A DNA stretch of 64,000 nt, taken from assembly GCA_018829445.1 (NCBI GenBank), contig JAHJTV010000006.1, forward strand, positions 1 to 64,000. The letters are read 5' to 3'. Source of the stretch: a bacterium (GTDB lineage: Bacteria; SAR324; XYD2-FULL-50-16). The translations under genes were made by a program, and so were the position numbers. A model generated the notes under the pieces. The model ran no database searches. It saw only the letters and a list, made by a program, of their open reading frames with translations, and had not been told where the DNA came from. This document shows positions 7,324-55,617 of this stretch, piece after piece (positions within the stretch are counted from its first letter, which is position 1; each line of letters starts with the position of its first letter).

Positions 7324-9351
7324 TCAAATCGGAGGCAAATGTTGTGGCAGGTTAACAGTGAAAATAGTCCCACAAGTACCTTTGGCCGGGTCATTGTTGG
7401 ATTCAAAGTGAATGTCACCGCCATGCATTTTTATGATTCCATATGCCACAGACATGCCAAGTCCTGTGCCTTTTCCCAACTGCTTTGTGGTAAAAAACGG
7501 TTCGAAAATCCTTGGATAATTATCCGGTGCTATCCCAACTCCCGTATCTTTAAAGATAAAATAAAACCCTTGCTCATTTTCGGTTACAGTGATCGTCAGG
7601 ATTCCACCATCCGGCATTGCCTCACATGCATTAACAATCAGATTAATAAAAACTTGAGCCATTTGACTTGAATCCAGTTCAATAATCAGATCACGATTTT
7701 TTTGGTTGATTACAATTTTGACGTCCTGGGGAATAAGGGCAGTTCTAAGACTTAGTTCAATCAATTCTGCGATGTTTGTAGGCTGTCGACTAACCTTGTT
7801 TTGTCGTGCAAAATTCAGTAACCCGGAAACAATTGTTTTACAGCGATCCGTCTGCTCAACTATCATTTCCAGGTCTTTCTTTAACCTGATGTTTTCCTCA
7901 CATTCCTCAAGTAACAAATGAGCATACATCAAGACAATACCTAAGGGATTATTTATCTCATGAGCAATTCCAGCAGCCAGTTGCCCCATACTGGCAAGTC
8001 TTTCAGAATGCATCAATGCTTCCTGAACATTTGCCAACTCCTTATTCGAGATAGAAAGCTCCTGAAGGGTCTTTTTTAACTGATCTATGGAATAGGGCAG
8101 GCACATTTCGCTTTCAGCTAAACCTTTATATATGGCAATGGCATGATCACGACAGGAATCGTAACCGCAGGCACCACAATTGAGTTCATCTTTGGTTGAA
8201 AATTTACCCATTCTATTCAAGATTGAAACAATATTATTCTCAGGTGGTTCCGGGAAACATCGATTATTAGCAAGATAGCCACGGGATAAATCAAGATCGG
8301 CGAGTTTATCAATATAGGATTTCCATTTTTTTAAATTCCGACCAGCCTTGTGAGACTTCACGTAATTGATTACATGGGATCGTCGTCGAAAAAGAGGCAG
8401 ATCATTTTTTATTCCCGGTCCCATAATACATCCCTTACAACAAAGTACTTCCAACAGGTTGACATTTAAATCTCCTGTTTCATATTCTTTTATAGCTTCA
8501 ATAAAATCTCTTTTTCCATCTGCTGCAATCACTTTACCTTGTATAACGTCGTCGCTAATCCGAGCTGCCTGTAACATGCCGCGACTTATCGGAAAGAGAG
8601 AGCCAATATGGCCGTGGGGGTCATCAAAATCACTTGTGCTGGTATTCTCCGGAGTAATTCCCTTCTCTTCAAACATCTGACGAAGCTCGATAAAGGTGAT
8701 AACTGCATCGATTTCATAATACGGCCTGGTGGGATCCCTTTCCTTTTTTTTAGCTAAACACGGACCGATGAACACAACTTTAAGATCTTCCCCCAAAAGA
8801 TTTCTGATGGCACGAGCTGTTCCCAACATAGGTGAGACAATAGGTGCCAGGGATTTTACAAGATTCGGATGGTAACGGCAAATGTACTCAACAATGGCTG
8901 GGCAGTTGGCAGAAATATATTGCTGATTCCTGTTGGCATTAATCAATTCGTTGTATTTTTGTGCAACAAGGTCGGCACCAACCGCCACTTCGTGAACATA
9001 ATCAAAACCAAGCGCTCTGATCATTCCAATCAATTTCCCATAATTGATATCAGGAAATTCAGCCGGAAAGCTGGGAGCGACACATGCGCTGACTTTTTCA
9101 TTAGAGTTCAAAAGATCATTAACTTTATCGATACAAAGCAGCACATGTTTCGCTTGTTGACTGCAGACATTAACACAATTACCACACCCAATGCATCTGT
9201 CAGATATCACTTCAGCCTGCCCCTCGAAAATGCGTATTGCCTTTGCCGGACATTCCCTGACGCAAGTGTAACAAACGCGACATCGTTCCTTAATAGTCGT
9301 TATCAGAGGATCCTTTTCGGTGACCGACGTAAGTTTTACTATTTTCCTCAT
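7324..9351 (-). CDS. [FeFe]-hydrogenase-like sensor fused to a histidine kinase
   Basis: The 675-residue protein joins two [4Fe-4S] motifs (C24/27/30/34 and C53/56/59/63), a hydrogenase large-subunit-type H-domain, a further [4Fe-4S] domain (C392/395/400/417) and a HisKA-HATPase_c kinase (GIAHEINNPLG, His464). The H-cluster loops are SANCP (C150), IGPCLAKKKE (C198) and EVLCCKGC (C304/305, C308). Four cluster-ligand cysteines are available, but the loops differ from the catalytic TSC, MPC and ACPGGC forms. It lacks the HydA small-subunit tail. This matches the putative sensory group C/D [FeFe]-hydrogenases. It lies downstream of hydCBA on the same strand, so an H2 or redox signal controlling the hydrogenase is a natural inference. 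Confidence 0.85.
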   Translation of the reverse strand: MRKIVKLTSVTEKDPLITTIKERCRVCYTCVRECPAKAIRIFEGQAEVISDRCIGCGNCVNVCSQQAKHVLLCIDKVNDLLNSNEKVSACVAPSFPAEFPDINYGKLIGMIRALGFDYVHEVAVGADLVAQKYNELINANRNQQYISANCPAIVEYICRYHPNLVKSLAPIVSPMLGTARAIRNLLGEDLKVVFIGPCLAKKKERDPTRPYYEIDAVITFIELRQMFEEKGITPENTSTSDFDDPHGHIGSLFPISRGMLQAARISDDVIQGKVIAADGKRDFIEAIKEYETGDLNVNLLEVLCCKGCIMGPGIKNDLPLFRRRSHVINYVKSHKAGRNLKKWKSYIDKLADLDLSRGYLANNRCFPEPPENNIVSILNRMGKFSTKDELNCGACGYDSCRDHAIAIYKGLAESEMCLPYSIDQLKKTLQELSISNKELANVQEALMHSERLASMGQLAAGIAHEINNPLGIVLMYAHLLLEECEENIRLKKDLEMIVEQTDRCKTIVSGLLNFARQNKVSRQPTNIAELIELSLRTALIPQDVKIVINQKNRDLIIELDSSQMAQVFINLIVNACEAMPDGGILTITVTENEQGFYFIFKDTGVGIAPDNYPRIFEPFFTTKQLGKGTGLGMSVAYGIIKMHGGDIHFESNNDPAKGTCGTIFTVNLPQHLPPI

Positions 9352-12106: not shown

Positions 12107-13831
12107 CTATTGACGTCCTTTGTATTCGGTGTGTAGAAGTTTGTGTGATTTCTCTCCCAAAGGTTGTTTAAGGTATGTATCATATAGCAGTTTTACTGCC
12201 GGGTTCTCATGAGATTGCCTGAATTCCTGTATGTCACTATCATCATGATAAAGGGCTTTTGCTCTCAACCTGCGTTTTTCATTATCTACCGGTAGACTCT
12301 GTCCTCCACCTCCGACGCATCCTCCCGGACAAGCCATTAATTCAATAAAGTGAAAATCAGCCGCTCCGTTAACAACCATTTCCAGGAGTTTGCGTGCGTT
12401 TCCCAAACCATGCGCAACTGCCACTCGAACTTCACCTAACTCTCCGACTTCAATAGCCGCAGTTTTGACGCCTTCGAGTCCACGAACCGGTAGAATTTCA
12501 AGGTTGGGCATCGGTTTTCCGGTAACAATAGCATAGACAGACCTTAAAGCGGCTTCCATTACACCGCCTGTGGCTCCAAAAATGGTGCCGGCTCCCGTAT
12601 ATTGTCCCATAGGAGCATCAAAATTCTGAGGTTCGAGTTTGTCAAAATCAATCCCGGCTTGCCGAATCATCCGCCCCAATTCTCTGGTTGTTAATACTAC
12701 GTCCACATCTCGGAATCCGGAATCTTTCATTTCAGGACGGCTGGCTTCAAATTTTTTGGCGGTGCAGGGCATAATTGAAACCACATAAATGTTTTCAGGA
12801 GAAATCTCAGATGATTCTGCATAATATGTCTTGGCCAAAGCCCCAAACATTTGTTGTGGCGATTTACAACTGCTGATATGTGGGAGAAGGTTCGGATAAA
12901 AATGTTCCGCAAATTTAATCCAACCCGGGCTACAGGAGGTTATCATTGGCAATGTACCTCCATTTTTGACTCTTTGCAGAAGCTCGTTTCCTTCCTCCAC
13001 AATCGTTAAGTCAGCAGTAAAGTTGGTGTCGAATACTTTATCGAATCCTAAACATCGCAAAGCGGCAATCATTTTCCCTGTGACCAGCTCGCCGGGCGGA
13101 AGACCAAACTCTTCACCCAGAGTTCCTCTGATAGCAGGAGCCTCCTGCACAATAACGTGTTTGGTCGGATCATTCAAAGCAGCCCAAACCTTGTGGGTTT
13201 CATCCTTCTCGACGATAGCTCCGGTAGGGCAAACCACAGCACATTGACCGCAATACGTACAAGCAGAATCCTGAAGATCCTTTCCCAATGCCGGTACGAC
13301 TTTGGAATCAAATCCTCGTCCTTCCGGAGTCAAAAGATGAACTCCCTGGATTTCCGCACAAACCGCAACACAACGGAGGCAGTTGACACATTTTGAAGAA
13401 TCTCTGACAAGTGATGGTGACGAATCATCAACGTGATAATCAGTGAAGTTGGTACAAGGAACTCGAATCTCTCTCACTCCAATAAGCTGTGCCAAAGATT
13501 GTAACTCACAAGATCCATTTTTTTGGCAAATATTGCAGTCTTGAGGATGATCGGACAACAAAAACTCTACAATATCACGACGGGCTTTAATCACCCGGGT
13601 TGAATTCGTTTTAACTTTCATTCCGGCAGCTACCGGGTAAACGCATGATGCAACCAGCGTGCGGCTTCGATCAACTTCTACAACACATACACGGCATGCC
13701 CCCGGAGCATGGTGGATTTCCGGCAAAGTACACAAGGTTGGAATCGAAATACCGACGGTTTTTGCAGCCTCAAGCAGGGTCGTTCCCTCAGGAACCTGAA
13801 CCTCTTTATTGTCAATTGTTAGTGTTACCAT
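12107..13831 (-). CDS. hydA: [FeFe]-hydrogenase catalytic subunit, NAD(P)-linked type
   Basis: This catalytic subunit reduces protons or oxidises H2 at an H-cluster. It is about 574 residues from the ATG at 13831. Domains in order: 2Fe-2S (C34, C46, C49, C63), a His/Cys [4Fe-4S] site (H95, C99, C102, C108), two ferredoxin [4Fe-4S] motifs (C148-C158 and C191-C201), the H-domain with TSCSPGW, MPCTAKKFE and ELMACPGGCVGGGGQ, and a C-terminal small-subunit tail. All H-cluster ligands are present. With hydB and hydC it should form a cytoplasmic complex exchanging electrons with pyridine nucleotides and probably ferredoxin. Maturation genes (hydE/F/G) are not in this window. Confidence 0.93.
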   Translation of the reverse strand: MVTLTIDNKEVQVPEGTTLLEAAKTVGISIPTLCTLPEIHHAPGACRVCVVEVDRSRTLVASCVYPVAAGMKVKTNSTRVIKARRDIVEFLLSDHPQDCNICQKNGSCELQSLAQLIGVREIRVPCTNFTDYHVDDSSPSLVRDSSKCVNCLRCVAVCAEIQGVHLLTPEGRGFDSKVVPALGKDLQDSACTYCGQCAVVCPTGAIVEKDETHKVWAALNDPTKHVIVQEAPAIRGTLGEEFGLPPGELVTGKMIAALRCLGFDKVFDTNFTADLTIVEEGNELLQRVKNGGTLPMITSCSPGWIKFAEHFYPNLLPHISSCKSPQQMFGALAKTYYAESSEISPENIYVVSIMPCTAKKFEASRPEMKDSGFRDVDVVLTTRELGRMIRQAGIDFDKLEPQNFDAPMGQYTGAGTIFGATGGVMEAALRSVYAIVTGKPMPNLEILPVRGLEGVKTAAIEVGELGEVRVAVAHGLGNARKLLEMVVNGAADFHFIELMACPGGCVGGGGQSLPVDNEKRRLRAKALYHDDSDIQEFRQSHENPAVKLLYDTYLKQPLGEKSHKLLHTEYKGRQ

Positions 13832-13962
13832 AATGACATCCCTCATTGTTTTTATTCAGTTTATGTCATTTTAAAATTCCACCCATTCTTTTTTTGGAAT
13901 TTTAATGTGTTGTTTTGATTGACTGGTGAAGAGTCCATGTGATTTTGCGCCAAAATTTATAT

Positions 13963-16900
13963 CTATTCTTTTCCTCCATCACATCGCAAACATCGTTTTG
14001 CTTCTGATATTGCCATCTCCAATGAATATCCCAATTCGACTTCGCTGAAATTACCCACTCTATTGGAAATCTCCAGTTCCGGCATCGCTTTTTGTGCCTG
14101 CATTTCCGGATCTTCATCCAATTGAAATGGGATGTGTATTTTTTCCATCTGCGGAGGAATCCAGGGCTGTTCTCCATTCACTGTTCTAATCTCTTTATCA
14201 ATTTTCGATGCTGCATTCTGCCCTGCTTTGATAGCATCAATAACCATAGCTGGACCTGTTGTAACATCTCCCCCGGCAAAAACTTTTGGAACAGATGTTC
14301 TAAAATCGGCATTTACTTCGATTCTGTTGCCGGAAGGATCGATGCCTTTTCCCTGTAAAAAATCCAAATCTGCTTGTTGGCCAATTGCTGCGATAACCAT
14401 ATCAGCATCAATCGTAAATTCCGAACCCTCGATAGGTACGGGCTTTTTTCGTCCACTGCGATCAAATTCGGACAAGGTCATTCGTACCAGTTTTAATTTA
14501 TTGCTTTTCCCACTTTTTGATTCAATACCCAATGGACCAACTAAGTACTCAATACGAACCCCTTCGTTTATTGCCGCCTGGATTTCTTCTTCAAGAGCTG
14601 GCATATCTTTGCGTTCGCGGCGATAATAGATGGTTACTGAATTTACCTTTTTTCTGATTGCCGTTCGCGCTGCATCTACTGCAGAATTTCCCCCTCCAAT
14701 AACAGCAATATTTTTGCCAAACGCAACCTTTTTCCCCAGTTTGAAATCTCGCAACAATTCAACAGCTCCGACCACACCACCAGTAACTTCACCTGGAATA
14801 CCCAGCGGACTGCTCTTTTGAGCGCCAATCGCTATATAGACATAATCAAAATCCTCCTGCAACTTCTCAAAAGGAATATCTTTTCCAACAATGGTGTTGG
14901 TTTGAATCTCAATACCGGTATCCAGAATATCCTGAATTTCATGAATAACAATTTCCTTTGGCAGACGATAATCCGGAATACCCCAGCGAAGCATCCCGCC
15001 CGCTTCAGGTAATGCTTCAAACACTGTAACCGCATATCCTCTTTTCTTTAATTCAAGCGCCGCGGTTAGACCGGAGGGCCCGGCTCCTACAATAGCAATT
15101 TTCTCATTTCTGGTTACCGGCTCTACTGAAACTTTGGTTCGCGTCGTATTATCTGTGATGAATCGCTTAATATTCTTTATGGCCAATGGTTCATCAAGTT
15201 GAGATCTACGACATTTACTTTGACAGGGATGTCCGCAAACCCTGCCACAGATACCGGGGAAAGGATTGGTTTGTTTTAGTACCTGATAGGCACCGGTTAA
15301 ATCGCCATCTCTCACCAATGCGATATAAGCAGGTATGTCCATGCCAACCGGACAGGCATGCTGACAAGGGCTTTTGAACAAACCACTGCAAACAGCGGCT
15401 AAACATTGTTTTTCCCGGATATGCGCATCATACTCATCCCTAAAATAGCGAAGGGTACTTAGCACTGGATTCGGAGCAGTCTGACCCAGTCCACACAAGG
15501 CTGAATCTTTTATGGTCTGAGCAATATCCTCCAATAATTCAATATCTCCCTCCCTGCCTTCTCCCTGACAAATTCTTTCGAGAATTTGCAGCATCCGCCT
15601 TGTTCCGATTCGGCATGGTGTGCATTTACCACACGATTCATCCTGACAGAAATCCATAAAAAACCTGGCCATATCAACCATGCAGGTGTTTTCATCCATA
15701 ACAATCATCCCGCCTGATCCCATGATTGCACCTGCTTTGACAATTGCATCATATTCAATTGGCAAATTTAATTGCTCAGAAGGAAGACATCCTCCCGAAG
15801 GACCGCCTAATTGGATGGCCTTAAATTTTCTATTGCCAATGATACCTCCACCGATATCAAATACCACCTTGCCAATAGAGGTTCCCATGGGAACTTCTAC
15901 CAAACCGAAATTGTTTACAGTTCCCGATAGAGAGAAAATCTTAGTTCCCTTGGCTGCTTCCGTTCCGATTTTTGCGTATTCTTCACCTCCTTTGGTAATG
16001 ATTTGGGGAATGTTGGCGTATGTTTCAACATTGTTTAATACCGTTGGCTTTTTCCATAAACCGGAAACAGCAGGAAAAGGAGGACGAGGTCTCGGCGTAC
16101 CTCGGAGTCCTTCAATGGAAGTCATCAAAGCAGTCTCTTCACCACAGACAAAAGCACCAGCTCCCTTATAAACTTCCAATTCAAAATCAAACCCGGTATT
16201 AAAGATATTTTTCCCCAAGAGTCCATAGGCCTTTGCCTGTTCAATGGCGATGTTTAGTCTTTTTAACGCCAAGGGGTATTCAGCACGACAATATACATAT
16301 CCTGAATGCGCATTAATCGCTTTGGCTGCGATTAACATTCCTTCCAGGACAGCATGTGGATCCGACTCGAGAACACTTCGATCCATAAAAGCGCCCGGAT
16401 CGCCTTCATCCGCATTGCATAGAACATATTTTACATCTCCTTTTGTGTTGGCACAAAATTCCCATTTTAATCCAGTGGGGAAACCGCCGCCGCCTCGTCC
16501 GCGTAGCCCTGAGGCTTTAACTTCCTGAATAACCTTCGCCGGGCTTATTTCAGTAAAGGCTTTATATGCAGCCTTATATCCATCACGCCAAATATAATCT
16601 TCAACAGATTCAGGATTGATCAAACCGCCATTGTGCAACACAATCATTGTCTGCATCGAAATAAAGGGAATGTCTTTCAGTAGAGGGATGATCTTTCCTG
16701 TCGTGGGATCACTAAACATCAGGCGTTGTACCGGGTTGCCCTTGGAGAAATGTTCGGTAGTTAATTCACTGATATCTTGAGGCAAAAGTTTTTGATAGAA
16801 ATACCCACCCGGATAAATCGTCATTACGGGTCCGACTGCACAAAACCCCATACAACCACTTTCAATAACCTGTACTTTTTTTGTAAGCTTCTGTTGTGAC

Positions 16901-17064
16901 AATTCTTCAATCAGTGCTTCTTTTAAAGAGATGCTTTCTGAAGCCTGACAAGGAGTTCCACTGCAAACCATGGCCCTAAATTCATATGAGCTCCTTTCCC
17001 TTTCCACCTTGTTTGCGATAGACCTTAGCTCATTCAGAGTGGATATTTTATTAATCTCTGCCAT
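13963..17064 (-). CDS. hydB: HydB/NuoF-like flavoprotein subunit fused to a GltD-type FAD/NAD(P)H module
   Basis: This protein is about 1033 residues from the ATG at 17064, which has an AGGAGG site. An N-terminal thioredoxin-like 2Fe-2S domain comes first (VCSGTPC and ESGCMGFC). Next is the NuoF core, with an FMN/NAD-binding region (GLRGRGGGGFPTGLKW, CNADEGDPGAF), an SLBB part and the [4Fe-4S] site ESCGKCTPCRIGT. In place of the usual HydB C-terminal ferredoxin domain there is a GltD/NfnB-like unit with an N-terminal Cys-rich domain (CQHACPVGMDIPAYI, CGRVCGHPCQSKC), an FAD motif (VGAGPSGLTAALEL) and an NAD(P) motif (VIGGGNSAVDAART). The second nucleotide site suggests coupling of NAD(H), NADP(H) and H2 or ferredoxin pools. 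Confidence 0.9.
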   Translation of the reverse strand: MAEINKISTLNELRSIANKVERERSSYEFRAMVCSGTPCQASESISLKEALIEELSQQKLTKKVQVIESGCMGFCAVGPVMTIYPGGYFYQKLLPQDISELTTEHFSKGNPVQRLMFSDPTTGKIIPLLKDIPFISMQTMIVLHNGGLINPESVEDYIWRDGYKAAYKAFTEISPAKVIQEVKASGLRGRGGGGFPTGLKWEFCANTKGDVKYVLCNADEGDPGAFMDRSVLESDPHAVLEGMLIAAKAINAHSGYVYCRAEYPLALKRLNIAIEQAKAYGLLGKNIFNTGFDFELEVYKGAGAFVCGEETALMTSIEGLRGTPRPRPPFPAVSGLWKKPTVLNNVETYANIPQIITKGGEEYAKIGTEAAKGTKIFSLSGTVNNFGLVEVPMGTSIGKVVFDIGGGIIGNRKFKAIQLGGPSGGCLPSEQLNLPIEYDAIVKAGAIMGSGGMIVMDENTCMVDMARFFMDFCQDESCGKCTPCRIGTRRMLQILERICQGEGREGDIELLEDIAQTIKDSALCGLGQTAPNPVLSTLRYFRDEYDAHIREKQCLAAVCSGLFKSPCQHACPVGMDIPAYIALVRDGDLTGAYQVLKQTNPFPGICGRVCGHPCQSKCRRSQLDEPLAIKNIKRFITDNTTRTKVSVEPVTRNEKIAIVGAGPSGLTAALELKKRGYAVTVFEALPEAGGMLRWGIPDYRLPKEIVIHEIQDILDTGIEIQTNTIVGKDIPFEKLQEDFDYVYIAIGAQKSSPLGIPGEVTGGVVGAVELLRDFKLGKKVAFGKNIAVIGGGNSAVDAARTAIRKKVNSVTIYYRRERKDMPALEEEIQAAINEGVRIEYLVGPLGIESKSGKSNKLKLVRMTLSEFDRSGRKKPVPIEGSEFTIDADMVIAAIGQQADLDFLQGKGIDPSGNRIEVNADFRTSVPKVFAGGDVTTGPAMVIDAIKAGQNAASKIDKEIRTVNGEQPWIPPQMEKIHIPFQLDEDPEMQAQKAMPELEISNRVGNFSEVELGYSLEMAISEAKRCLRCDGGKE

Positions 17065-17093
17065 TATCTTATGCCTCCTATGCTGACCAGCCT

Positions 17094-17600
17094 TTAGCAA
17101 TATGGATTTAAGGTTTGACTGAGTTTAGCCGCCTTAACCTGTTTATATACTTTTTCATTGACAACCATAACCGGCGCTACACCGCACGCTCCCAGGCAGC
17201 GAACGATATCCAAACTGAAAATGCGATCATTTGTGCATTCTCCCGGACAAAGTCCCATTTTATTTTTGATCTCTTCGACTATCCTTTGTCCGCCCCGTAC
17301 ATGACAAGCCGTTCCCAGACATACTCGAATTTGGTGTTTTCCCCGGGGAACCATCGTAAAAAATGAATAGAAGGTGACAACTCCATAGACTTGGCTTAAT
17401 GGAATGTTGAGACCTACAGCAACCCGACGTTGAACCGATTCCGGCAAATATCCGGATATTTCTTGAACTTCTTCCAATACCGGTATTAAGGAACCCGGTT
17501 TATTTCCCATTCTTTTTAAAACCTCATCTATTTTATTCCAAATAGTATCTGAAAACTCATCATCTTTATGGGATGCCTCAGGACAATGTTTGTCACTCAT
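17094..17600 (-). CDS. hydC: HydC/NuoE-like 2Fe-2S subunit
   Basis: This thioredoxin-fold [2Fe-2S] subunit is about 168 residues from the ATG at 17600, which follows GAGAGGAG. Cluster ligands are in CLGTACHVRGG and CLGACGVAP. The N-terminal helical NuoE domain contains LIPVLEEVQEISGYLPE. It is the first gene of hydC-hydB-hydA and lies 29 bases before hydB. It should dock on the NuoF-like part of HydB. No convincing sigma-54 site lies upstream, unlike many other operons in the window. Confidence 0.92.
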   Translation of the reverse strand: MSDKHCPEASHKDDEFSDTIWNKIDEVLKRMGNKPGSLIPVLEEVQEISGYLPESVQRRVAVGLNIPLSQVYGVVTFYSFFTMVPRGKHQIRVCLGTACHVRGGQRIVEEIKNKMGLCPGECTNDRIFSLDIVRCLGACGVAPVMVVNEKVYKQVKAAKLSQTLNPYC

Positions 17601-39894: not shown

Positions 39895-41283
39895 ATGAAT
39901 AGAAATATATTACTGGTGGATGACGAGGAGCGGTTTCTTGCGACCACAAAAACATTATTGGAGAAACGGGGCTATCAGGTCGAAACAGCTCTGAATGGAA
40001 TGGATGCTTTGGAAAAAATAGGGAAATTAAGCATCCATCTGGTAATATTAGATGTAAAGATGCCTATTATGGACGGTCTAACCACCTTAAAAAAGATTAA
40101 GCACGATTTTCCCTTGATTGAAGTTATCATGCTAACCGGACATGCCACTATCGAAAACGCTGTTGAAGGGGTGCGTTTAGGAGCTGCAGACTATTTAACC
40201 AAACCGGTGGATGTGGATGATATTGCAGAAAAAATTGAGACCTGTTTAGACAAAAGGCAGAGTATCGATGCGCAGTCTGTCAGACGAACAGATAGATTTA
40301 AAAAAATAAGGTTACAGCTTTTTTTGAGCATCTCCGGCATACTGCTACTATTCTATGCGTTATTTTTTCAGGTCGGTTATTCCTGGCTGAGTGAAACGTG
40401 TCAGGTACTCATGACCAGCCGGTCTTTGACACCAATATATAGTTATGTGTGTCGACACAATCAAAAGCTGGTGGTACTGTTGGCGGCTGTTATGTTTTTG
40501 ATCCCGATTGGTACCTGGGCTGTTGTAGGTCTTCTGGTAAACCGGATCCAAACCATAACCCAAAAACGTGATGAGTTGCAGTTCCAACTCTTTCATGCAT
40601 CAAAGCTGGCTTCCATAGGCGAATTGGCAGCAGGGGTTGCTCATGAAATAAACAATCCCCTGGCCATTATCGTTGCAAGGTGTGGAATAATTGAGGATTT
40701 CCTTAATCCAAGTTTTAACAAGACACCGGAGCCCGAAAAGATACTGGATGAGATTAAAACAATTAGCCAGGCAGCATTCAGAGCTCAGCGCATTACCAGG
40801 CAACTCATCGATTTTGGTCAAAAGAAAAAACCGGATTTGGTACCTTATAACGTTAATCAGATTCTCGACGAAATTATAGATGAATTGAAAGCTCATGATT
40901 TCAAGCAAGGCAATATAGAGATTATTCGAGACTATGCCGCCAATATCCCAACAATTCCACTGGATCTCAATCAGATCAAGCAAGTTTTCCTAAACCTTCT
41001 TAACAACGCAAATGAAGCCATTTCCGAATCAGGAACCATCACCATCTCGACCAGGGAAAAAAACGACTACCTAAATATCGCGATCGAGGATACCGGTTCC
41101 GGAATGACTCCCGGCCAGATGAAAAGGATCTTCAAACCCTTTTACACAACTAAAAAAGTTGGAACGGCAACCGGGTTGAGTTTGAGTGTTTCTTTGAGCA
41201 TTGTTGAATCTTTGGGGGGAACAATTGATGTTCAGTCCATGGAGGGTGTTGGCAGTACATTTACCGTATCTTTGCCGCTTTAA
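39895..41283 (+). CDS. Receiver domain fused to a membrane histidine kinase
   Basis: This 462-residue protein has an N-terminal receiver (LLVDDEERFLATT, Asp53 in VILDVKMPIMDG, TKPVDVDDI). Two membrane segments follow near 142-165 and 196-220 with only a short periplasmic loop, then HisKA (AAGVAHEINNPLAIIVA) and HATPase_c (LNLLNNANEAI, DTGSGMTPGQM). The last G-box reads GTATGLSLSVSLSIV instead of GTGLGLS, which may lower activity. Lacking a periplasmic sensor, it is probably driven by phosphorylation of its own receiver. A good Shine-Dalgarno (GGGAG) precedes the ATG. Confidence 0.88.
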   Translation: MNRNILLVDDEERFLATTKTLLEKRGYQVETALNGMDALEKIGKLSIHLVILDVKMPIMDGLTTLKKIKHDFPLIEVIMLTGHATIENAVEGVRLGAADYLTKPVDVDDIAEKIETCLDKRQSIDAQSVRRTDRFKKIRLQLFLSISGILLLFYALFFQVGYSWLSETCQVLMTSRSLTPIYSYVCRHNQKLVVLLAAVMFLIPIGTWAVVGLLVNRIQTITQKRDELQFQLFHASKLASIGELAAGVAHEINNPLAIIVARCGIIEDFLNPSFNKTPEPEKILDEIKTISQAAFRAQRITRQLIDFGQKKKPDLVPYNVNQILDEIIDELKAHDFKQGNIEIIRDYAANIPTIPLDLNQIKQVFLNLLNNANEAISESGTITISTREKNDYLNIAIEDTGSGMTPGQMKRIFKPFYTTKKVGTATGLSLSVSLSIVESLGGTIDVQSMEGVGSTFTVSLPL

Positions 41284-41612: not shown

Positions 41613-43106
41613 TCAGGGAACAACCACAAGTTCATATCCTGTCGGGGTCAGTTTGGCCGGCGTCTTCATATTGTTAATATTGCCAGGCATACCAACCAAT
41701 GGATACCACAGAGCCATTATCAATGACAGCATAATGATACCCAGAAATGATCTGAACAACAGCACTTTGAATGCTTCCCATTGGGTGAAATAACCGAAGC
41801 CATAGGCAATCAGCGTCGGAGGACATCCAATGACCAGCAGAACGAAGGTAGTGGCCAAAGGTACTGACATCGCAATCGGTACTACGGGTGTGCCTGCCAT
41901 GTTCGCCATTGGAACTATGACAGGAACTAAAAGGGCCGTAGCTGCCGCATTAGCCATAAAGCTGGTAATGACTGCGCTAAGCCAGGAAGCACCAGCGGCA
42001 ACCACGGGCCAGGGCGAGTTGACAAAAATCGGGAAAATCTGAGTTGCAATCCATTTACCTGCGCCCGTATCCAACATGGCAACTCCCAGGGAAAAACCAG
42101 CCCCAAACACCATGATCGGGTTCCAGGGATATTCATCCAAACATCGTTTCCAATCGACGACCCTGAATATCATACAAACAACAATGAAAAGACCGCCAAT
42201 GGCCGAAACATGGATTTTAGTCAGGTCGGTCATGAACCAGAGTATAAACGTTACCCCCAATACCAGCGAAAGAATCTTTTCGTTGCGGGTCATCGAAGGC
42301 ATTTTCTCGATTGCCAGTTCCGCGGGCAGCTGTTTGATCTTTGGCGGATAGATGATCCAGACAGCCAACCAGGTTGATAATCCCAGGAGCATCGAAGGTA
42401 CGAATTGATACAGGGCATATTCCATGAACCCGATATGGTAGCCGGTGATCTGACCGAGCAGTTCTGCCGATGCCGGAGACCGACCGCTGCCAAGAAAAGT
42501 CGCACCACCTCCACAGGCCGACCCAAGTGGAATTACAAACATAAAGTGTTTGGTGAAGCTGTTGGAGTTATCCGCCTTCAGACCCATTTTCAGGAACATG
42601 GGCATGATGGCATAAATGAGAATAATAGTAATGGTTGCATCATGCGTCCATGCAGCCATAAATGTAGCTCCCATACAAAGTGTGAAACTGAGTCGCATTA
42701 CATTGGTGCCGCCTAATTTTAGTATAAAGCCCATAATTCGATTTGGCAGCGAGGTCTGACCCAGCATTACTCCGAGCATGATGATGAAAAAAACAAATAT
42801 GACAGTCCGGTTGGCAAAGGGCTCCCATGCCGCCTTGGATGACTGAATATTGAACAGAATCAAGCCGCATCCAGCGAGAATCGAAGTAACCCCAATCGGG
42901 ATGGCCTCGGATGTCCATAGCAGAACAATTACTGCCAGCAGGGCAAGAAAGGCATGGCCGCGAGTACCCAGATCCACGGGAGTAGGCAACACCCAGATCA
43001 ACAATCCTACAACAATTGAGATGGCAACCCACATAAGCGCACGTTTCTGGCTCTTCTCAGCAGCGCTCTTTTCCTCAGTTTTAGCGACGTTAACAACTGA
43101 ACTCAT
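41613..43106 (-). CDS. SLC13/DASS family anion symporter
   Basis: This 497-residue protein has about 11-12 hydrophobic segments and fits the divalent anion:sodium symporter family (dicarboxylates, sulfate, tartrate and similar). Typical blocks are VLLWTSEAIPIGVTSILAG near the N-terminus, NRTVIFVFFIIMLGVML and SFMANAAATALLVPVIVPMA. An AGGAGG site precedes the ATG. It lies 38 bases after the receiver-CBS gene and is last in the long signalling operon. A second DASS protein in the same operon carries a receiver domain. Confidence 0.88.
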   Translation of the reverse strand: MSSVVNVAKTEEKSAAEKSQKRALMWVAISIVVGLLIWVLPTPVDLGTRGHAFLALLAVIVLLWTSEAIPIGVTSILAGCGLILFNIQSSKAAWEPFANRTVIFVFFIIMLGVMLGQTSLPNRIMGFILKLGGTNVMRLSFTLCMGATFMAAWTHDATITIILIYAIMPMFLKMGLKADNSNSFTKHFMFVIPLGSACGGGATFLGSGRSPASAELLGQITGYHIGFMEYALYQFVPSMLLGLSTWLAVWIIYPPKIKQLPAELAIEKMPSMTRNEKILSLVLGVTFILWFMTDLTKIHVSAIGGLFIVVCMIFRVVDWKRCLDEYPWNPIMVFGAGFSLGVAMLDTGAGKWIATQIFPIFVNSPWPVVAAGASWLSAVITSFMANAAATALLVPVIVPMANMAGTPVVPIAMSVPLATTFVLLVIGCPPTLIAYGFGYFTQWEAFKVLLFRSFLGIIMLSLIMALWYPLVGMPGNINNMKTPAKLTPTGYELVVVP

Positions 43107-43144: not shown

Positions 43145-44059
43145 TTATTGCTGGCTGATTTTAACCATTTCAAAAAACAGGTCTTGTTCACGGATAATAC
43201 CGATCACCTTGTTATCTGCAGTGACAATGACACGCCGTTTTTTCTTCTTGAAAATCATATCGGCTACCTGCATCAGATTGGCGTTCCCATCGATCATGGG
43301 TGGCGGCTCGGACATGAGTTCCCCGACTTTTTTATCGGCCAGGGCTTTCATCTGGATGGAAAAAAGACCATCCCATCCACCCCAGAACATCGGAGAAAAG
43401 CGGATACTTTCGAGATAGTCGGATCGTGAGGCAGAAATATAGGTCGGGAGTACTCCCTTGATCAGATCCATGATACTCAATATCCCTACCAAATCTTGTC
43501 TGGTATCTAAAACCAGCAAGGAGCGATGGCCGGTTTCCATGATCAGATTGCTGGAAATCAGGGATCTAAAGGAAGACATCAACTTGTCGAGTGCTTCCCG
43601 CACCGTTGCATCCACTGATATGGTGGAGTAATCGGCAATGCTGATCATGATATCCCGTGCCTTTTTTTCGCTTTGGCTTGCTCCGCTGGTTTTAAGAGCG
43701 TGTGCCTCCTTGATTTTTATGGCCAGAATATCAATATCACAGGGTTTGGTTAGGTAATCGAATGCGGCATGATCAAGTGAATTCTGGGCTGAATCCGGAC
43801 TGCCATGACCGGTTAGCATGATCACCTGGGTTTGGGGGGCGATTTTCTTGATCTCCGCCAGGGCTGCATGGCCATCCATGCCCTTCATTTTGACATCCAG
43901 AATTACCACATCCTGAGGTTGCTTTTTAATCAGGCTGATGGCTTCTTCGCCGCTGGCTGCGATTGTGGTCTCAAATCCTCTTCTGTTCAACAATTTGGAT
44001 GTGGTGTCACGAAACTTGGCTTCGTCGTCCACCATCATCACTTTGATCTTTTCGGTCAT
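43145..44059 (-). CDS. Response regulator with C-terminal CBS pair
   Basis: This 304-residue protein begins with a receiver (VMMVDDEAKFRDTTSKLL, phospho-acceptor in VVILDVKMKGMDG, LTKPCDIDIL). It continues as two CBS domains (about 135-300), ending with IGIIREQDLFFEMVKISQQ. The CBS half is homologous to the stand-alone CBS protein at 25911-26441, so it probably arose by fusion. It joins phosphorylation input with adenine-nucleotide sensing and could gate the transporter encoded 38 bases downstream. An AGGAG site precedes the ATG. Confidence 0.88.
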   Translation of the reverse strand: MTEKIKVMMVDDEAKFRDTTSKLLNRRGFETTIAASGEEAISLIKKQPQDVVILDVKMKGMDGHAALAEIKKIAPQTQVIMLTGHGSPDSAQNSLDHAAFDYLTKPCDIDILAIKIKEAHALKTSGASQSEKKARDIMISIADYSTISVDATVREALDKLMSSFRSLISSNLIMETGHRSLLVLDTRQDLVGILSIMDLIKGVLPTYISASRSDYLESIRFSPMFWGGWDGLFSIQMKALADKKVGELMSEPPPMIDGNANLMQVADMIFKKKKRRVIVTADNKVIGIIREQDLFFEMVKISQQ

Positions 44060-44319: not shown

Positions 44320-46371
44320 TCAGATCCAATTCCAGTATCCCAAGAATACCCAAATCCAGAGAACTGCCAGGCTCAGGATAAAAACCATAAATCCATGGAT
44401 GAAAAAATCCCTCAGGGTTATTAACTGTTCCCCTGTTTCCGGATCTTTGGCCAAACTGTAAACAATCGCATTATTGGGTGTCCCAATAATCAACATATGG
44501 GCGAATGAAGAGGAAAATGCCGTTGCCAATCCTACCAGTATAGGAGAAGTCCCTGAAAGAGTGGCCATAGGGATGGTTATAGGACCCACGGCTGCAACAG
44601 TAGCCCCGTCACTCATAAAGTTGGTAAGAATTCCGGTTGCAAAGCTGGTAGAAACTAAAAGACCGGTTCCACTTTTAAAGATATCAGGCAGGACAGATAT
44701 AAAACTGTTGGCTAACCACAATGCTCCACCTGATGCGGCAAGACCATATCCCATGGCGCTGGCCGCTGCATATAAAGCAACAATATCCCAATGAATGCTA
44801 TTGATATCCTTCCAGCGAAGAACGCCAAGTATATTCAAAAGTACCAGACATAAGATGATGGGGCCTCCCATTCCAAACCTGCTCGACAGGGTGGTCCATA
44901 ATACTATTACGAGCAGCAGCACGGCGGCAGCCTTATATTCATCAGGCGTCATTTTTCCGATCTTTTCCGCTTCCTTTTTAACTTCTTCGGCAATATTGAG
45001 AGATTGAACCTTGATTGATTTTTTAAATACCACCAGAAAATAGATGGCAATTACAATAGCCATAACCGGAACAAAAGGAAGTCCCATTTTCACCCATTCA
45101 CCAAAAGAAAAACTGATGCCGTAATCGGAAAAAATGCCAAGCATGACCGCATTACGTCCACCGGCTGCAGGCGAACCCGGACCGCCAACATTTGCACAAA
45201 AAGTCAGCATCAACAGGAGCATTACAGCCAGACTTTTGTCTTTTTTGATGCCGGCACTTTTGATAGCTCCCATATATACCAGCATCAATATTGGGGCAAT
45301 AAAGGCCACCAAAGCATGCTCCGAAAGAAAAGAAGCGGTTATTGCCAACAATGGTGCAAAAAAGAGTGCGAACTTACGGATGGAGGTACTTGTGCCCAAC
45401 AGCAGCAACCCAATTCGGCGATCAAGCCCGGTTTTTCCAATGGCGACAGCCATTGCCAGTACACCGAAAATAAAAACAACGGAATCCTTTGCATACGCTT
45501 TGGCCACTTGATCCGGCGGTAAAACGCCGAAAAAATACATGAGCGCCCCAACCAATAAAGCTGTCACGCCAATGGGAATGGCACCTGTTGCCCAAAAAAG
45601 GGCTGCGATCACGAGAACACCTATCATAACTTTTGCCCTGAAAGCCACCTTTTCAATATTAGACGCTCGATTTACAATCTCTTCGCTTTCGGTTTTGGAC
45701 GTTTTTATTAGTTGGGCTTTGGTTCCGTAGTAGTCGACAATGGTTTCACCAATCTTCATCTTGCGATAATCGGAGTAACCCGCAACGCTTTCCCCCATTT
45801 TCCCTGTTTTCTGGCTGGTTAAAAAAGCTTCAAGCTGCCGGGGAACAGGCATAAATGCTATAAGAACAAACAGAAGAATTCCAAGCAGGATAATACCGGG
45901 ACGAGCATTTGGCACGCCGATCATCCATTCCTTAATACTGTTTCTTTTGATTTCAGGAATCTCATGCCTGGCTAATGCACGTTTCCTTTCGTCAGCGGCC
46001 TCATTGATAACAGAGATCATGGTTTCGAGATCGCATGGCTTTTCAACATAAGCAAAGACATCATGTTTGCCTGTGAGCCTTGCCGACTCTATACTGCCAT
46101 GCCCCGTATGCATAATTACCTGAACCTCGGGACGGATTTTTTTCAACTCCTGCAGGGTCTGTATTCCATCCATTCCCGGCATTTTCTGATCAAGAATAAC
46201 AACTTCAGGATTAAAGTGGCGGACAATTTTTATGGCATCCTCCCCATTATCCACATCCTTGATAGAAAATCCCCGATGAATGAGTTGCTGTGCCAGAGCC
46301 TGACGAAATCGATCCTCATCATCAATCAACACTATCTTTGGCTTATATTCCGAGGCTAAAATTTTTTCCAT
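44320..46371 (-). CDS. Response-regulator receiver domain fused to an SLC13/DASS transporter
   Basis: Residues 1-125 of this 683-residue protein are a receiver (IVLIDDEDRFRQALAQQL, Asp61 in VVILDQKMPGMDG, VEKPCDLETMI). A linker and a first membrane segment near 152-170 lead into a full SLC13/DASS carrier of about 11-12 segments. Carrier blocks include ATGAIPIGVTALLVGALMYF, GGPGSPAAGGRNAVML and LIIGTPNNAIVYSLAK. The receiver appears complete, so phosphorylation could control transport directly. It follows a CBS-ACT gene by 32 bases and has a GGGAG site. One continuous frame excludes a simple assembly join. Confidence 0.9.
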   Translation of the reverse strand: MEKILASEYKPKIVLIDDEDRFRQALAQQLIHRGFSIKDVDNGEDAIKIVRHFNPEVVILDQKMPGMDGIQTLQELKKIRPEVQVIMHTGHGSIESARLTGKHDVFAYVEKPCDLETMISVINEAADERKRALARHEIPEIKRNSIKEWMIGVPNARPGIILLGILLFVLIAFMPVPRQLEAFLTSQKTGKMGESVAGYSDYRKMKIGETIVDYYGTKAQLIKTSKTESEEIVNRASNIEKVAFRAKVMIGVLVIAALFWATGAIPIGVTALLVGALMYFFGVLPPDQVAKAYAKDSVVFIFGVLAMAVAIGKTGLDRRIGLLLLGTSTSIRKFALFFAPLLAITASFLSEHALVAFIAPILMLVYMGAIKSAGIKKDKSLAVMLLLMLTFCANVGGPGSPAAGGRNAVMLGIFSDYGISFSFGEWVKMGLPFVPVMAIVIAIYFLVVFKKSIKVQSLNIAEEVKKEAEKIGKMTPDEYKAAAVLLLVIVLWTTLSSRFGMGGPIILCLVLLNILGVLRWKDINSIHWDIVALYAAASAMGYGLAASGGALWLANSFISVLPDIFKSGTGLLVSTSFATGILTNFMSDGATVAAVGPITIPMATLSGTSPILVGLATAFSSSFAHMLIIGTPNNAIVYSLAKDPETGEQLITLRDFFIHGFMVFILSLAVLWIWVFLGYWNWI

Positions 46372-46403: not shown

Positions 46404-47081
46404 CTAAAAAAGCTCCCTTGTTTGTCCAAAGGGATCAATGATGTAGTGTAATTTTGTTTTCTTCAATATTTTTGACCTGATTTGAATCAGGTTGCTGCGA
46501 TCGATGTTGTAAACTCTGATATAGACGTTTCTGTGACCGATTGAAGCTCGTTCATACGATGCAAGAATGCTGGCGATACGACCATCGTGCAAACGAATAA
46601 TATCAGTAATCTCTTTGATGGACCCCGGGCGGTCTTCTACCTGAAAACCGATGTCGATTCCCTTTTTATCCATGCTGGTCAAAGAGGTTAAAGCATTAAA
46701 AATATCAGTTTTTGTAATAATACCGACCATCTCCCCCTTTTCATCAACAACAGGAACTCCCAAGATTCTGTGTTTCAGAAAGATATTGATCGTTTCACTA
46801 ATGGTGTTAAGCAATGAGACAGTCTTCACATTTTTTGTCATAACCTCACTCACCAAGAGGGAGGAGGTTGATTTGAGAAACCTGTTAATTGAAAAGGTAT
46901 TGGAAGCCGAGATTATAGCTCTCTTAATGTCTCCACCGGTCACAATGCCTGTTAGGCTGCCCTGGTGCAACACGGGTAATGAATGAATGTTATAAGCCAG
47001 CAGCATTTTCTCAGCGGTTTTAACCGATTCATCCGTTTCTGTTGTTATAACGTTTTTGCTCATCCATTCTTTCACCAGCAT
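46404..47081 (-). CDS. CBS-CBS-ACT domain protein, paralogue of the one at 18699-19376
   Basis: This 225-residue protein has the same length and domain order as its paralogue: CBS (WMSKNVITTETDESVKTAEK), CBS (VMTKNVKTVSLLNTISET) and ACT (VEDRPGSIKEITDIIRLHDGRIASI). Shared blocks such as RNVYIRV show recent common ancestry. It lies 42 bases after a Cache kinase and directly before the receiver-DASS fusion, so it may be a nucleotide/metabolite sensor tied to transport control. Confidence 0.88.
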   Translation of the reverse strand: MLVKEWMSKNVITTETDESVKTAEKMLLAYNIHSLPVLHQGSLTGIVTGGDIKRAIISASNTFSINRFLKSTSSLLVSEVMTKNVKTVSLLNTISETINIFLKHRILGVPVVDEKGEMVGIITKTDIFNALTSLTSMDKKGIDIGFQVEDRPGSIKEITDIIRLHDGRIASILASYERASIGHRNVYIRVYNIDRSNLIQIRSKILKKTKLHYIIDPFGQTRELF

Positions 47082-47123: not shown

Positions 47124-48896
47124 TTAAGCCCTGTTTGCATTTTCTGGAATTCGAATCGGCAACGACACCATAAAAGAGCTCCCTTCACCCTCCATACTCT
47201 GGACATCAATGGTTCCGCCCATGGATTCAATGATATTCAAAGATATTCCGAGACCCAGACCGGTACCCTTTCCCACCTCCTTTGTTGTATAAAAAGGATT
47301 AAATATCTGCTTAAGCTGATCGATGGACATCCCTTTTCCGGTATCAGTGATGATAATTTTAACCGTTTCATCCTCAAATTTTGTAGTGATGGTGATGGTA
47401 CCAGGTCCTTCAATAGCATCACCGGCATTATTAACCAGATTCAGAAATACCTGACTGATTTGATCCGGGTCGATCAGAATTTTAGGAATATCAAGGTCAT
47501 ATTTTCGCACAAAATTAATATCAACCACCTTGAATTCACGTTCAATCAGTCCGTTAATCACATCATTCAGAATGTGATTGATATCGCTGTAAATCAGACG
47601 AGGTTCATTCTTTCTTCCGAATTCCAGCAGTTTGCTGGTGATCCCCTTAGCCCTCAGAACAGCTGAGTTGAGCACATCAAGTTCCGCGCGGATATCATCG
47701 GCAGTCCATTCAAGCTTAAATTCGGGATTAAAAAAATCCCTGATAACCCCACTGGTTGCCAGGATGATGGCAAGGGGATTATTAATCTCATGGGCAATCC
47801 CCGCCGACATTTCGCCTATCGATGCCAGCTTGGTGGCATGTACAAGCTGCAGCCGCATCTCATCTTTCTTTTCCGAGGCGTCCTGGGCATAACTGATAAG
47901 CCTGTTTGTTGTTATAAAGATCACTCCCGCAAAAACGATCAGAACAATGACCAGTACAAACGTTATAATCCTCCTGGTAGTATGCATCTTCGCGTAAGCT
48001 ATACCCAGGGGTTGTCTGACCAGCAAAACCCAATTTGCTTCTTCCAACCAGGAATGAGCGATCAGTATGGAGTCCCCATTATTCTTGACCTCTTTAACAT
48101 CCGAAGGTTCTGCTATATCAGGTGTATACATGCTTTTTTGAAATGGTTTTCCAATATTTGGCCCCACAACCTGATAGATCCCCTGGGCATTAATAAGCAC
48201 CGATTCGACTCCCTGTGCTCGGTTAATGGTCTGTAGAAACCGGTAAAACTGGTCAGGGTCAAGAGTTGACCGAATAACAAATGGCTGTTGATTGATCACC
48301 TGTTTGACAGCAATTGTAAAATGGGGATTGTTTCTAAACCCAAGATAAATATCAGTGATGTGATATTCTTTTTTCCCTTCCATTAAGGCTTTAAACCAGC
48401 TTTCGTTGCTGTAATCCTTGTCTTGAAGACTGGAATAGGGGCCTGCGTAACCAAATTGTATTCCTTTTACGTTTAGGAATCCGAGATCAACAAAGGTATT
48501 GTTGGCCTGTTTCAAGTTCATTAACAGGTACTTCATTTCCGAGTTGTCAAGGGTTGGCTTGAAATCCGGATTGTGGAACAGACTGAAGAGGTTAATCACT
48601 CTCTCCTGCAGGAAAAGATCAACTGTGTTTCTCTGGCTTTCGGACAACGACACCAGATGAAGTTTTCCGGTTTCATTGAGGACGTTATTGAACTGATAAT
48701 TAAAAAATATTGTCAGTGCGCCATAGGGAAATGTAAAAGCGATTAAGAGGGCGATAGAAAGCTTATATCGAAGCCGTTTAAAAAACTGGTCGATGCTTTC
48801 CTTGTTTTCATACTTATCAATATACTGCACAGGGTGCGAGTTTTTTGAGCCTATCTGATCGTTCATACTCCCGTTTATCCTGTTAAATACGTTCAC
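47124..48896 (-). CDS. Membrane sensor histidine kinase with periplasmic Cache domain
   Basis: This 590-residue protein starts at a GTG overlapping the preceding receiver gene; an ATG at 48866 is the alternative. TM1 lies near 48-70, the Cache sensor at about 75-310 (DKDYSNESWFKALMEGKKEYHITDIYLGFRNNPHFTIAV), and TM2 near 315-337. These are followed by HisKA (SAGIAHEINNPLAIIL) and HATPase_c (LNLVNNAGDAIEG, DTGKGMSIDQL, GTGLGLGISLNI). It resembles the kinase at 37619-39307. It pairs with the receiver gene just upstream and heads a signalling/transport operon behind a sigma-54-like promoter. Confidence 0.9.
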   Translation of the reverse strand: MNVFNRINGSMNDQIGSKNSHPVQYIDKYENKESIDQFFKRLRYKLSIALLIAFTFPYGALTIFFNYQFNNVLNETGKLHLVSLSESQRNTVDLFLQERVINLFSLFHNPDFKPTLDNSEMKYLLMNLKQANNTFVDLGFLNVKGIQFGYAGPYSSLQDKDYSNESWFKALMEGKKEYHITDIYLGFRNNPHFTIAVKQVINQQPFVIRSTLDPDQFYRFLQTINRAQGVESVLINAQGIYQVVGPNIGKPFQKSMYTPDIAEPSDVKEVKNNGDSILIAHSWLEEANWVLLVRQPLGIAYAKMHTTRRIITFVLVIVLIVFAGVIFITTNRLISYAQDASEKKDEMRLQLVHATKLASIGEMSAGIAHEINNPLAIILATSGVIRDFFNPEFKLEWTADDIRAELDVLNSAVLRAKGITSKLLEFGRKNEPRLIYSDINHILNDVINGLIEREFKVVDINFVRKYDLDIPKILIDPDQISQVFLNLVNNAGDAIEGPGTITITTKFEDETVKIIITDTGKGMSIDQLKQIFNPFYTTKEVGKGTGLGLGISLNIIESMGGTIDVQSMEGEGSSFMVSLPIRIPENANRA

Positions 48897-49269
48897 TTTT
48901 TATAACCTTGCCCTTATATGCCAGATCGATTTTTTCAACGAGTTCATCAATATCAACCGGCTTAATAACATAATCGTTGATCCCGTTTTTAAGCCCATCA
49001 ATGGCCAAATCAAGTTTGGCATGTCCCGTATGCATGATCACCTGTACCGATGGATCAATTTTCTTGATCTCCTGAAAAGTCTCTATGCCATCTTTTCCTG
49101 GCATTAGCACATCAAGGATAATCACATCAAAACTGCTTTTCTCAACTGCCTTAATTGCTTCATCCCCATTATAAACGGCAGTAACATCATAGTTCCTGAC
49201 TACCAGTTGCTTGAATAATGAACTGATATAATCCTTTTCATCATCCACCAGTAACACCCTGATCTTCAT
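48883..49269 (-). CDS. Single-domain response regulator
   Basis: This 128-residue receiver has VLLVDDEKDYISSLFKQL, phospho-acceptor DVIILDVLMPGKDG and lysine motif YVIKPVDIDELV. No output domain is present. A GGGGAG ribosome site precedes the ATG. It is the first gene of the operon extending to 41613, and its 3' end overlaps the kinase gene, which supports a cognate pair. Confidence 0.9.
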   Translation of the reverse strand: MKIRVLLVDDEKDYISSLFKQLVVRNYDVTAVYNGDEAIKAVEKSSFDVIILDVLMPGKDGIETFQEIKKIDPSVQVIMHTGHAKLDLAIDGLKNGINDYVIKPVDIDELVEKIDLAYKGKVIKSERI

Positions 49270-54279: not shown

Positions 54280-55617
54280 TCACTTCAAACTCAAAGTATA
54301 GGCAATATCTCTCAGTTTCTTTTTTACAGCTTTATCGTAAGTAAACCTGAGCGAACTGAGGGTGATACGAATAATTTTTTCTTCCTTTTGGGTGGTTAAA
54401 ATCAGGATGATCATCTGGTTGGCTTTGTCAGGTAACTGTACTTCTATCTCGCCCTCAATGGCCGGGGTTCCGTCCTTTAAGGAAGCTTGGATTTCGGAGA
54501 TCACCCTGGTTTCCATGCCGAGGGTGTTGGAAATGAACCGGGACGCATCCTTGATTGATTCTTGCAAACCACCCGGAGAGGCATCAACAACCCTGACTAT
54601 GATATTCGGGTACCCTGTCTCACTGATCGCCATGAAGTCAAAGCTCATCACCGGTGTCGGGTTTTGCACCACCCAATCACCGGGATAGGTTACTGAGAAT
54701 CCCAGGTTTGGGTGAGTATAGATTTGAGGTCTTTTTTTTCCGGAGCCGACTCCCTGGGATTGCATCGTTGCTCTCAGACTTAAGGCATCATGGTTAATGG
54801 ATCGTTTTCTCACATCCAAAAACTGTATGAACTCGGGATTGGTAATGATATACAGCCTGTCCTCCTTGATGGAATTGATCACCATCCGGGCAACGATATC
54901 GGGGTCCATGCCCTCTTTAATACGCCGAACGAAGTTTTCCATGGCCGGCTCCCATATTTTTGCTATTTCTTCGGGTACTTCATATAGCCCCTCCTTTGTT
55001 CCTGCCAGCTTTTGTGAATTTTCCACAATATCTGTTCTGATAAAACCGGGACAAAGAACAGAGACGCCCACCCTGGTTTGTTGAAATTGCTGTTGCTGGT
55101 GCAGGGCTTCACTTAAGGCAACAACTCCGAACTTGGTTACGCTGTAAAGGGCATTTTCACCGCTTGACAGCAATCCGGCAATGGAAGCTGTATTAACGAT
55201 GTGGCACTCTTCGCCGCTTTCAATCATTCGTTTCAAAAAAAAGGAAATTCCATGAATAACCCCATAGAGGTTGACCCCGATTATCCAGTCCCAGTTTTCT
55301 AGATGAACTTCGGAGAGTAATCCTCCGGTACCGATACCGGCGTTGTTACAGAGTACATTGGCCTTACCGAATCGTTCATACGTTTCATTTGCCAGTTGGG
55401 ACATCTGCTCCCGATTACTGACATCCATCACCTTACTCATTACTTCAACCCCGATCTTCTCTATTTCGCGGTGAACTTTCATCAGGGATTCCTGATTGAC
55501 ATCCACAATTACAATCTTCATCTCTTCATGTGCAAACGCGAGCGCCAGCGACCGTCCGATTCCACTACCCGCTCCGGTTACAATCGCGACTTTACCTTTA
55601 AAATCTTTGATCATCAT
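54280..55617 (-). CDS. Short-chain dehydrogenase/reductase with extra C-terminal domain
   Basis: Residues 1-275 of this 445-residue protein are a classical SDR: NAD(P) motif VTGAGSGIGR near 14-23, NNAG near 90-93 and the YxxxK pair in YSVTKFGVVALSEALH. The last ~160 residues form an additional domain (HPNLGFSVTYPGDWVVQNPTP onward) resembling PsbP/Mog1-like folds found in lipoproteins and uncharacterised proteins. AGGAG precedes the start. The fusion is unusual; the substrate is unknown. Confidence 0.82.
   Translation of the reverse strand: MMIKDFKGKVAIVTGAGSGIGRSLALAFAHEEMKIVIVDVNQESLMKVHREIEKIGVEVMSKVMDVSNREQMSQLANETYERFGKANVLCNNAGIGTGGLLSEVHLENWDWIIGVNLYGVIHGISFFLKRMIESGEECHIVNTASIAGLLSSGENALYSVTKFGVVALSEALHQQQQFQQTRVGVSVLCPGFIRTDIVENSQKLAGTKEGLYEVPEEIAKIWEPAMENFVRRIKEGMDPDIVARMVINSIKEDRLYIITNPEFIQFLDVRKRSINHDALSLRATMQSQGVGSGKKRPQIYTHPNLGFSVTYPGDWVVQNPTPVMSFDFMAISETGYPNIIVRVVDASPGGLQESIKDASRFISNTLGMETRVISEIQASLKDGTPAIEGEIEVQLPDKANQMIILILTTQKEEKIIRITLSSLRFTYDKAVKKKLRDIAYTLSLK

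Follow-up and report, generated by a model that had tools for sequence, protein, structure and literature searches.

Described systems related to the fusion

Dissimilatory sulfate reduction begins with the import of sulfate, a step that is costly in energy. In Desulfobacteraceae, a cluster of genes for DASS (SLC13) carriers (Dvar_38230/Dvar_38430) that also includes Cache kinases and CBS proteins has been assigned to sulfate uptake on genomic and proteomic grounds, and the main text of that report offers a model of transcriptional control by ‘WalR type’ regulators (PMC11887813). A further study defined a DASS group, Cii (HRM2_38230, HRM2_38300, TOL2_19410 and Dole_1359; 474-691 aa), in sulfate reducers, and found that in Desulfobacterium autotrophicum the group Cii genes are responsive to the concentration of sulfate, with a text that is inconsistent on the direction of the response for HRM2_38300 (PMC5840216). 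No receiver is reported there for these proteins, and the main text of PMC11887813 likewise makes no mention of a carrier joined to one.

Receivers that act on membrane proteins, and carriers that are joined to two-component domains, have been described in other settings. In the EpsW-EpsZ system of Myxococcus, a receiver has a post-translational effect on a protein of the inner membrane, and the same report notes receiver fusions to membrane enzymes (receiver-fused small monoPGTs); the target there is a phosphoglycosyl transferase rather than a transporter (PMC12802240). The SLC5-STAC kinases CbrA, CrbS and RpuS also fuse a secondary-carrier module to two-component domains and have sensing roles (PMC9100948, PMC7096432). 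In those proteins the carrier serves as input to a kinase, whereas in the protein described below the carrier is joined to a receiver. We found no receiver-transporter fusion in the literature searched, a scope outside which lie most subscription journals and two standard surveys of response-regulator outputs. The cluster context is thus already published; the fusion itself seems to be undescribed in the literature searched.

The fused gene and its protein

The window, by which we mean the whole 64,000-nucleotide stretch of DNA analysed, carries a receiver-DASS (REC-DASS) gene on its minus strand (44320..46371). A preliminary description made from the DNA alone had placed a receiver and an anion carrier in one frame, and this is borne out by an uninterrupted ORF of 683 aa, with an ATG start codon and a GGAG element 7 nt upstream, whose two halves each match a Pfam family: Response_reg (PF00072) at residues 13-122 (E 1.9e-24) and Na_sulph_symp (PF00939) at residues 245-682 (E 9.6e-39). 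The receiver domain (aa 11-126; 45994..46341), which adopts a receiver fold in our AlphaFold2 model, is followed by a junction (aa 127-159; 45895..45993) and by the first transmembrane helix, TM1 (aa 160-176; 45844..45894), a hydrophobic stretch that the model renders as a helix at residues 158-172. A variable extramembrane loop (aa 177-243; 45643..45843), probably periplasmic given that TM1 is rich in K/R at its N-terminal flank, then leads to the DASS/SLC13 carrier core (aa 244-683; 44323..45642), which was assigned from PF00939, Foldseek and a motif alignment to VcINDY. The model has a mean pLDDT of 80 and a pTM of 0.70; part of the linker is of low confidence (pLDDT below 50 at residues 136-144), and the receiver-carrier interface could not be read from it.

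Conservation was assessed in an alignment of 40 sequences, comprising 29 full-length fused orthologues and 11 receiver-less relatives. The earlier proposal of a complete receiver with an acidic pocket, Asp61 and a conserved lysine holds throughout this set: D17, D18, D61 (codon 46189-46191), T89, K111 (codon 46039-46041) and P112 are invariant in 29 of 29 fused proteins. Mean pairwise identity among the fused proteins reaches 0.74 in the carrier and 0.69 in the receiver, with lower values in the linker (0.62) and in the loop that follows TM1 (0.42). The dN/dS values of the four closest pairs, which are rough because synonymous sites are near saturation, range from 0.05 to 0.09 for the receiver, 0.05 to 0.08 for the carrier, 0.02 to 0.16 for the linker and 0.19 to 0.38 for the loop. 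Purifying selection on the receiver therefore appears to be about as strong as that on the carrier. Within the junction, a motif comprising E137, W149, G152 and R157-P158-G159 is present in all 29 fused proteins and is specific to them, in that only P158 recurs among the receiver-less relatives (6/11), all 11 of which have lysine at position 157. The two junction blocks (residues 134-139 and 149-159) have a mean pairwise identity of 0.78. Conservation of this kind, located right at TM1, would be expected of a junction that passes the state of the receiver to the carrier, but not of a loose tether.

Foldseek searches with the REC-DASS model recovered known members of the carrier family, namely NaCT (SLC13A5; 8uvb, TMt 0.81), VcINDY (6okz, 0.79) and NaS1 (SLC13A1; 8w6n, 0.75), with TM-scores of 0.73-0.81 across the best models. 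These proteins share the carrier fold but lack a receiver. The two SNT motifs for substrate and Na+ of characterised DASS carriers, intact in VcINDY and NaCT, are both replaced in REC-DASS, where the VcINDY motifs align to S350-E351-H352 and S587-D588-G589. S350, S587 and D588 hardly vary across the 40 aligned relatives, and T631-P632 and a GSPAAGGRN segment of the carrier core are kept. The protein scores 170.3 bits against the NCBI model TIGR00785 (‘dass’), below its cut-off of 198.6. Family membership would predict Na+-coupled anion transport; because the SNT motifs are replaced, the substrate may differ from what homology suggests, and the protein is a putative rather than a proven transporter.

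The cluster context favours sulfate, which is probably the substrate. The gene dsrA is present in 17 of the 21 host genomes of the species-representative set described below. Within the order of Desulfobacula it occurs in 17/20 genomes with the fusion and in 209/243 genomes overall, and with dsrA so nearly universal, the co-occurrence of the fusion with sulfate reduction is uninformative at that level, and the count of 17 in 21 is a weak argument for sulfate.

Distribution, origin and gene neighbourhood

REC-DASS proteins were collected from 31 loci besides the window; they are 48-79% identical, most come from sulfate reducers of the Desulfobacterales, and in two loci a contig end breaks the gene. 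The architecture is therefore shared by other assemblies. In species-representative genomes, a scan located the fused protein at 22 loci (59-79% identity). The order of Desulfobacula, in which 243 genomes were searched, gave results that overlap partly with that set: the full fusion occurs in 20 genomes at 21 loci (48-77%). Most of the other 34 genomes with matches in the order search held carrier-only matches (41-48%), and one more match was a fragment at 79%. The fused length of 688-692 aa fits the upper length of 691 aa given for group Cii, to which we liken these proteins by length and organisms. A chimeric assembly or a frameshift as the source of the gene is ruled out by the occurrence of the same protein in the 31 other loci. 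Apparent fusions to other N-terminal regions, seen as frames of 700-730 aa that match residues 236-682 only, proved to contain real ORFs of 537-544 aa without the extension.

The fused proteins cluster together on a carrier tree (SH-aLRT 94), apart from their receiver-less relatives, and a receiver tree likewise unites the fused receivers (support 100) and separates them from other receivers of the same clusters. One fusion event would be the simplest history. Fused proteins were also present in bins labelled Thermoanaerobaculales, Pirellulales, Nealsonbacteria and unclassified (L025, L023, L024 and L026), with GC contents of 0.56-0.70; these may reflect either transfer or mislabelled bins.

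Among 52 genomes of its phylum, the genome that contains the window is the only one with the fusion, and its REC-DASS sequence is placed among those of Desulfobacterales on the carrier tree. Horizontal gain from Desulfobacterales is therefore likely. A mis-binned contig is unsupported, given that genes at 30-34 kb of the window are syntenic with those of a same-family genome (70-72% DNA identity), that dsrA is present elsewhere in the window’s own genome, and that the GC content is fairly uniform. Two other genes of the window encode multidomain proteins. At 7324-9351 (minus strand), a 675-aa protein combines an iron-only hydrogenase large-subunit domain and Fe-S motifs with HisKA and HATPase domains, making it a candidate hydrogen- or redox-sensing histidine kinase; an operon for an NADH-dependent [FeFe] hydrogenase lies nearby at 12107-17100. 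At 54280-55617 (minus strand), a short-chain dehydrogenase domain precedes a C-terminal PsbP-like domain, a combination that is odd in an anaerobe.

The REC-DASS gene of the window lies among other signalling and transport genes. Upstream are a CBS-CBS-(ACT) protein (46404..47081, minus strand; the ACT match is below the Pfam cut-off, and homologues occur in three of the other clusters), a dCache-HisKA-HATPase sensor kinase (47124..48896, minus strand), which is the putative phosphodonor, and a stand-alone receiver (48883..49269, minus strand) whose gene overlaps that of the kinase by 14 nt. Downstream are a REC-CBS-CBS protein (43145..44059, minus strand) that is conserved in homologous clusters, a second DASS carrier of 497 aa without a receiver (41613..43106, minus strand) and, on the opposite strand, a REC-TM-histidine kinase (39895..41283, plus strand). 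The preliminary description had called this neighbourhood an operon. The neighbours named there are as described and all lie on the minus strand, but a single transcript is unproved, since a gap of 260 nt separates the REC-DASS and REC-CBS genes, and promoter and terminator scans around this neighbourhood gave signals at chance level only.

Co-occurrence with Cache kinases, suggested at the outset as a check, is pronounced. An orthologue of the dCache kinase lies directly upstream of REC-DASS on the same strand in 29 of the 30 loci that have upstream sequence, and in many the coding regions overlap; the sole exception has the kinase divergent from REC-DASS. In the window, the CBS-ACT gene sits between the two. 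The phospho-accepting H369 of the kinase is present in 31/31 sequences, and the Cache sensor is conserved nearly as well as the kinase core (mean consensus frequency 0.70 vs 0.71), which suggests that the linked kinases sense a common ligand. Some loci, including L010, L011, L028 and L070, encode an upstream kinase with an N-terminal receiver of its own (REC-dCache-HK, 681-735 aa) where the window has the lone receiver gene that overlaps the kinase gene. On the receiver tree, the nearest relatives of this lone receiver are receivers beside receiver-less DASS genes. The receiver of the REC-TM-histidine kinase groups with those that the upstream kinases of L010 and L028 carry, and this protein probably belongs to the same signalling cluster. 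Ten of the clusters contain a further, conserved DASS carrier of ~616 aa, whose N-terminal region of well over 100 aa lacks a Pfam domain (checked in L028).

By gene set, which includes DASS carriers, Cache kinases, receivers and CBS proteins, the REC-DASS loci are very probably the same kind of cluster as that assigned to sulfate uptake in Desulfobacteraceae. Within ~9 kb of REC-DASS we counted 77 other receiver proteins, of which nine are REC-Cache-kinases, eight are REC-CBS proteins, six are sigma-54 activators and the rest are single-domain receivers. DNA-binding output is thus found in only 6/77, and none has a winged-helix or LuxR output, whereas winged-helix regulators of the WalR type figure in the model in the main text of PMC11887813. 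The loci here point to protein-level control at least as strongly as to transcriptional control. In addition, the five most distant receiver-less relatives (5/5) all have a lone receiver encoded within 100 nt of the gene for the carrier, and the pairing of a lone receiver with a receiver-less carrier in some genomes and their fusion in others is a Rosetta-stone pattern.

Proposed control of the carrier by its receiver

The REC-DASS architecture is real, conserved and, judging from the comparisons above, evidently functional, and conservation of the fusion together with its intact active site suggests an anion importer that is switched directly by phosphorylation. On these grounds, direct gating of transport has the best support of the mechanisms considered. 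Specifically, we propose, with a probability of roughly 0.55, that a kinase controls post-translational gating of a DASS anion carrier, most likely a sulfate importer, via D61. The receiver built into the cytoplasmic N-terminus of the carrier would be the input switch. The upstream Cache kinase would sense an external ligand, possibly sulfate, and would phosphorylate Asp61 of the fused receiver, although adjacency leaves the identity of the phosphodonor unproved because the cluster holds several kinases. The phosphorylated receiver would then act by way of the conserved linker, whose end lies at TM1 in the scaffold of the carrier, and a shift in dimer arrangement or in the elevator equilibrium would set transport activity without new gene expression. 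The direction of regulation is a presumed part of this proposal.

The same architecture could also be used in reverse, with the DASS module serving as a sensor (a transceptor) in which anion binding or transport alters receiver phosphorylation or kinase contact and so reports uptake to the signalling system. CbrA, in which an SLC5 module is the input, and likewise CrbS and RpuS, provide precedents (PMC9100948, PMC7096432); the substrate motifs of REC-DASS diverge from those of known DASS carriers, and other DASS carriers in the cluster could perform bulk transport. This arrangement is nevertheless unlikely: the module fused here is a receiver, an output-side element, rather than a kinase; a conserved Cache sensor is already present in the adjacent kinase; and the carrier retains other core residues, among them T631-P632 and the GSPAAGGRN segment. 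Lone receivers are known to serve as phosphate sinks. If the fused receiver were only a membrane-tethered sink of this kind, or a localisation tag for the kinase, carrier kinetics would be unaffected; such a role would by itself conserve the receiver active site, and many stand-alone receivers occur in the same cluster. It would leave unexplained both the persistence of the fusion across diverged genomes and a junction at TM1 that is conserved like the carrier core and differs from that of receiver-less relatives, and we regard it as less probable again.

The receiver would be irrelevant in the window’s strain if only, or mainly, a receiver-less carrier were made from an internal start, a refutation that the preliminary description had itself raised. 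The window’s copy does have an in-frame ATG at codon 150, 4 nt after an AAGGA element and just before TM1, so that a carrier-only side product is possible in this strain. Across the family the idea finds no support: Met150 is found in 1/29 orthologues, that of the window, and no conserved internal start was found among the 29. Given also the strong purifying selection on the receiver and the ribosome-binding site of the annotated start, production of the carrier alone is very improbable even here.

Direct gating, if it applies, might extend well beyond this strain. The broader proposition, that a widespread family of secondary carriers is gated allosterically by phosphorylation of a built-in receiver, allowing sulfate reducers to adjust anion (sulfate) uptake quickly and without recourse to transcription, is advanced tentatively, at a little under even odds. 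If this is true, a secondary transporter would stand out among the outputs of response regulators as an unusual one. With a receiver wired directly into a carrier of the sulfate cluster, the prediction is that the histidine kinase itself sets transport activity, and this prediction is testable.
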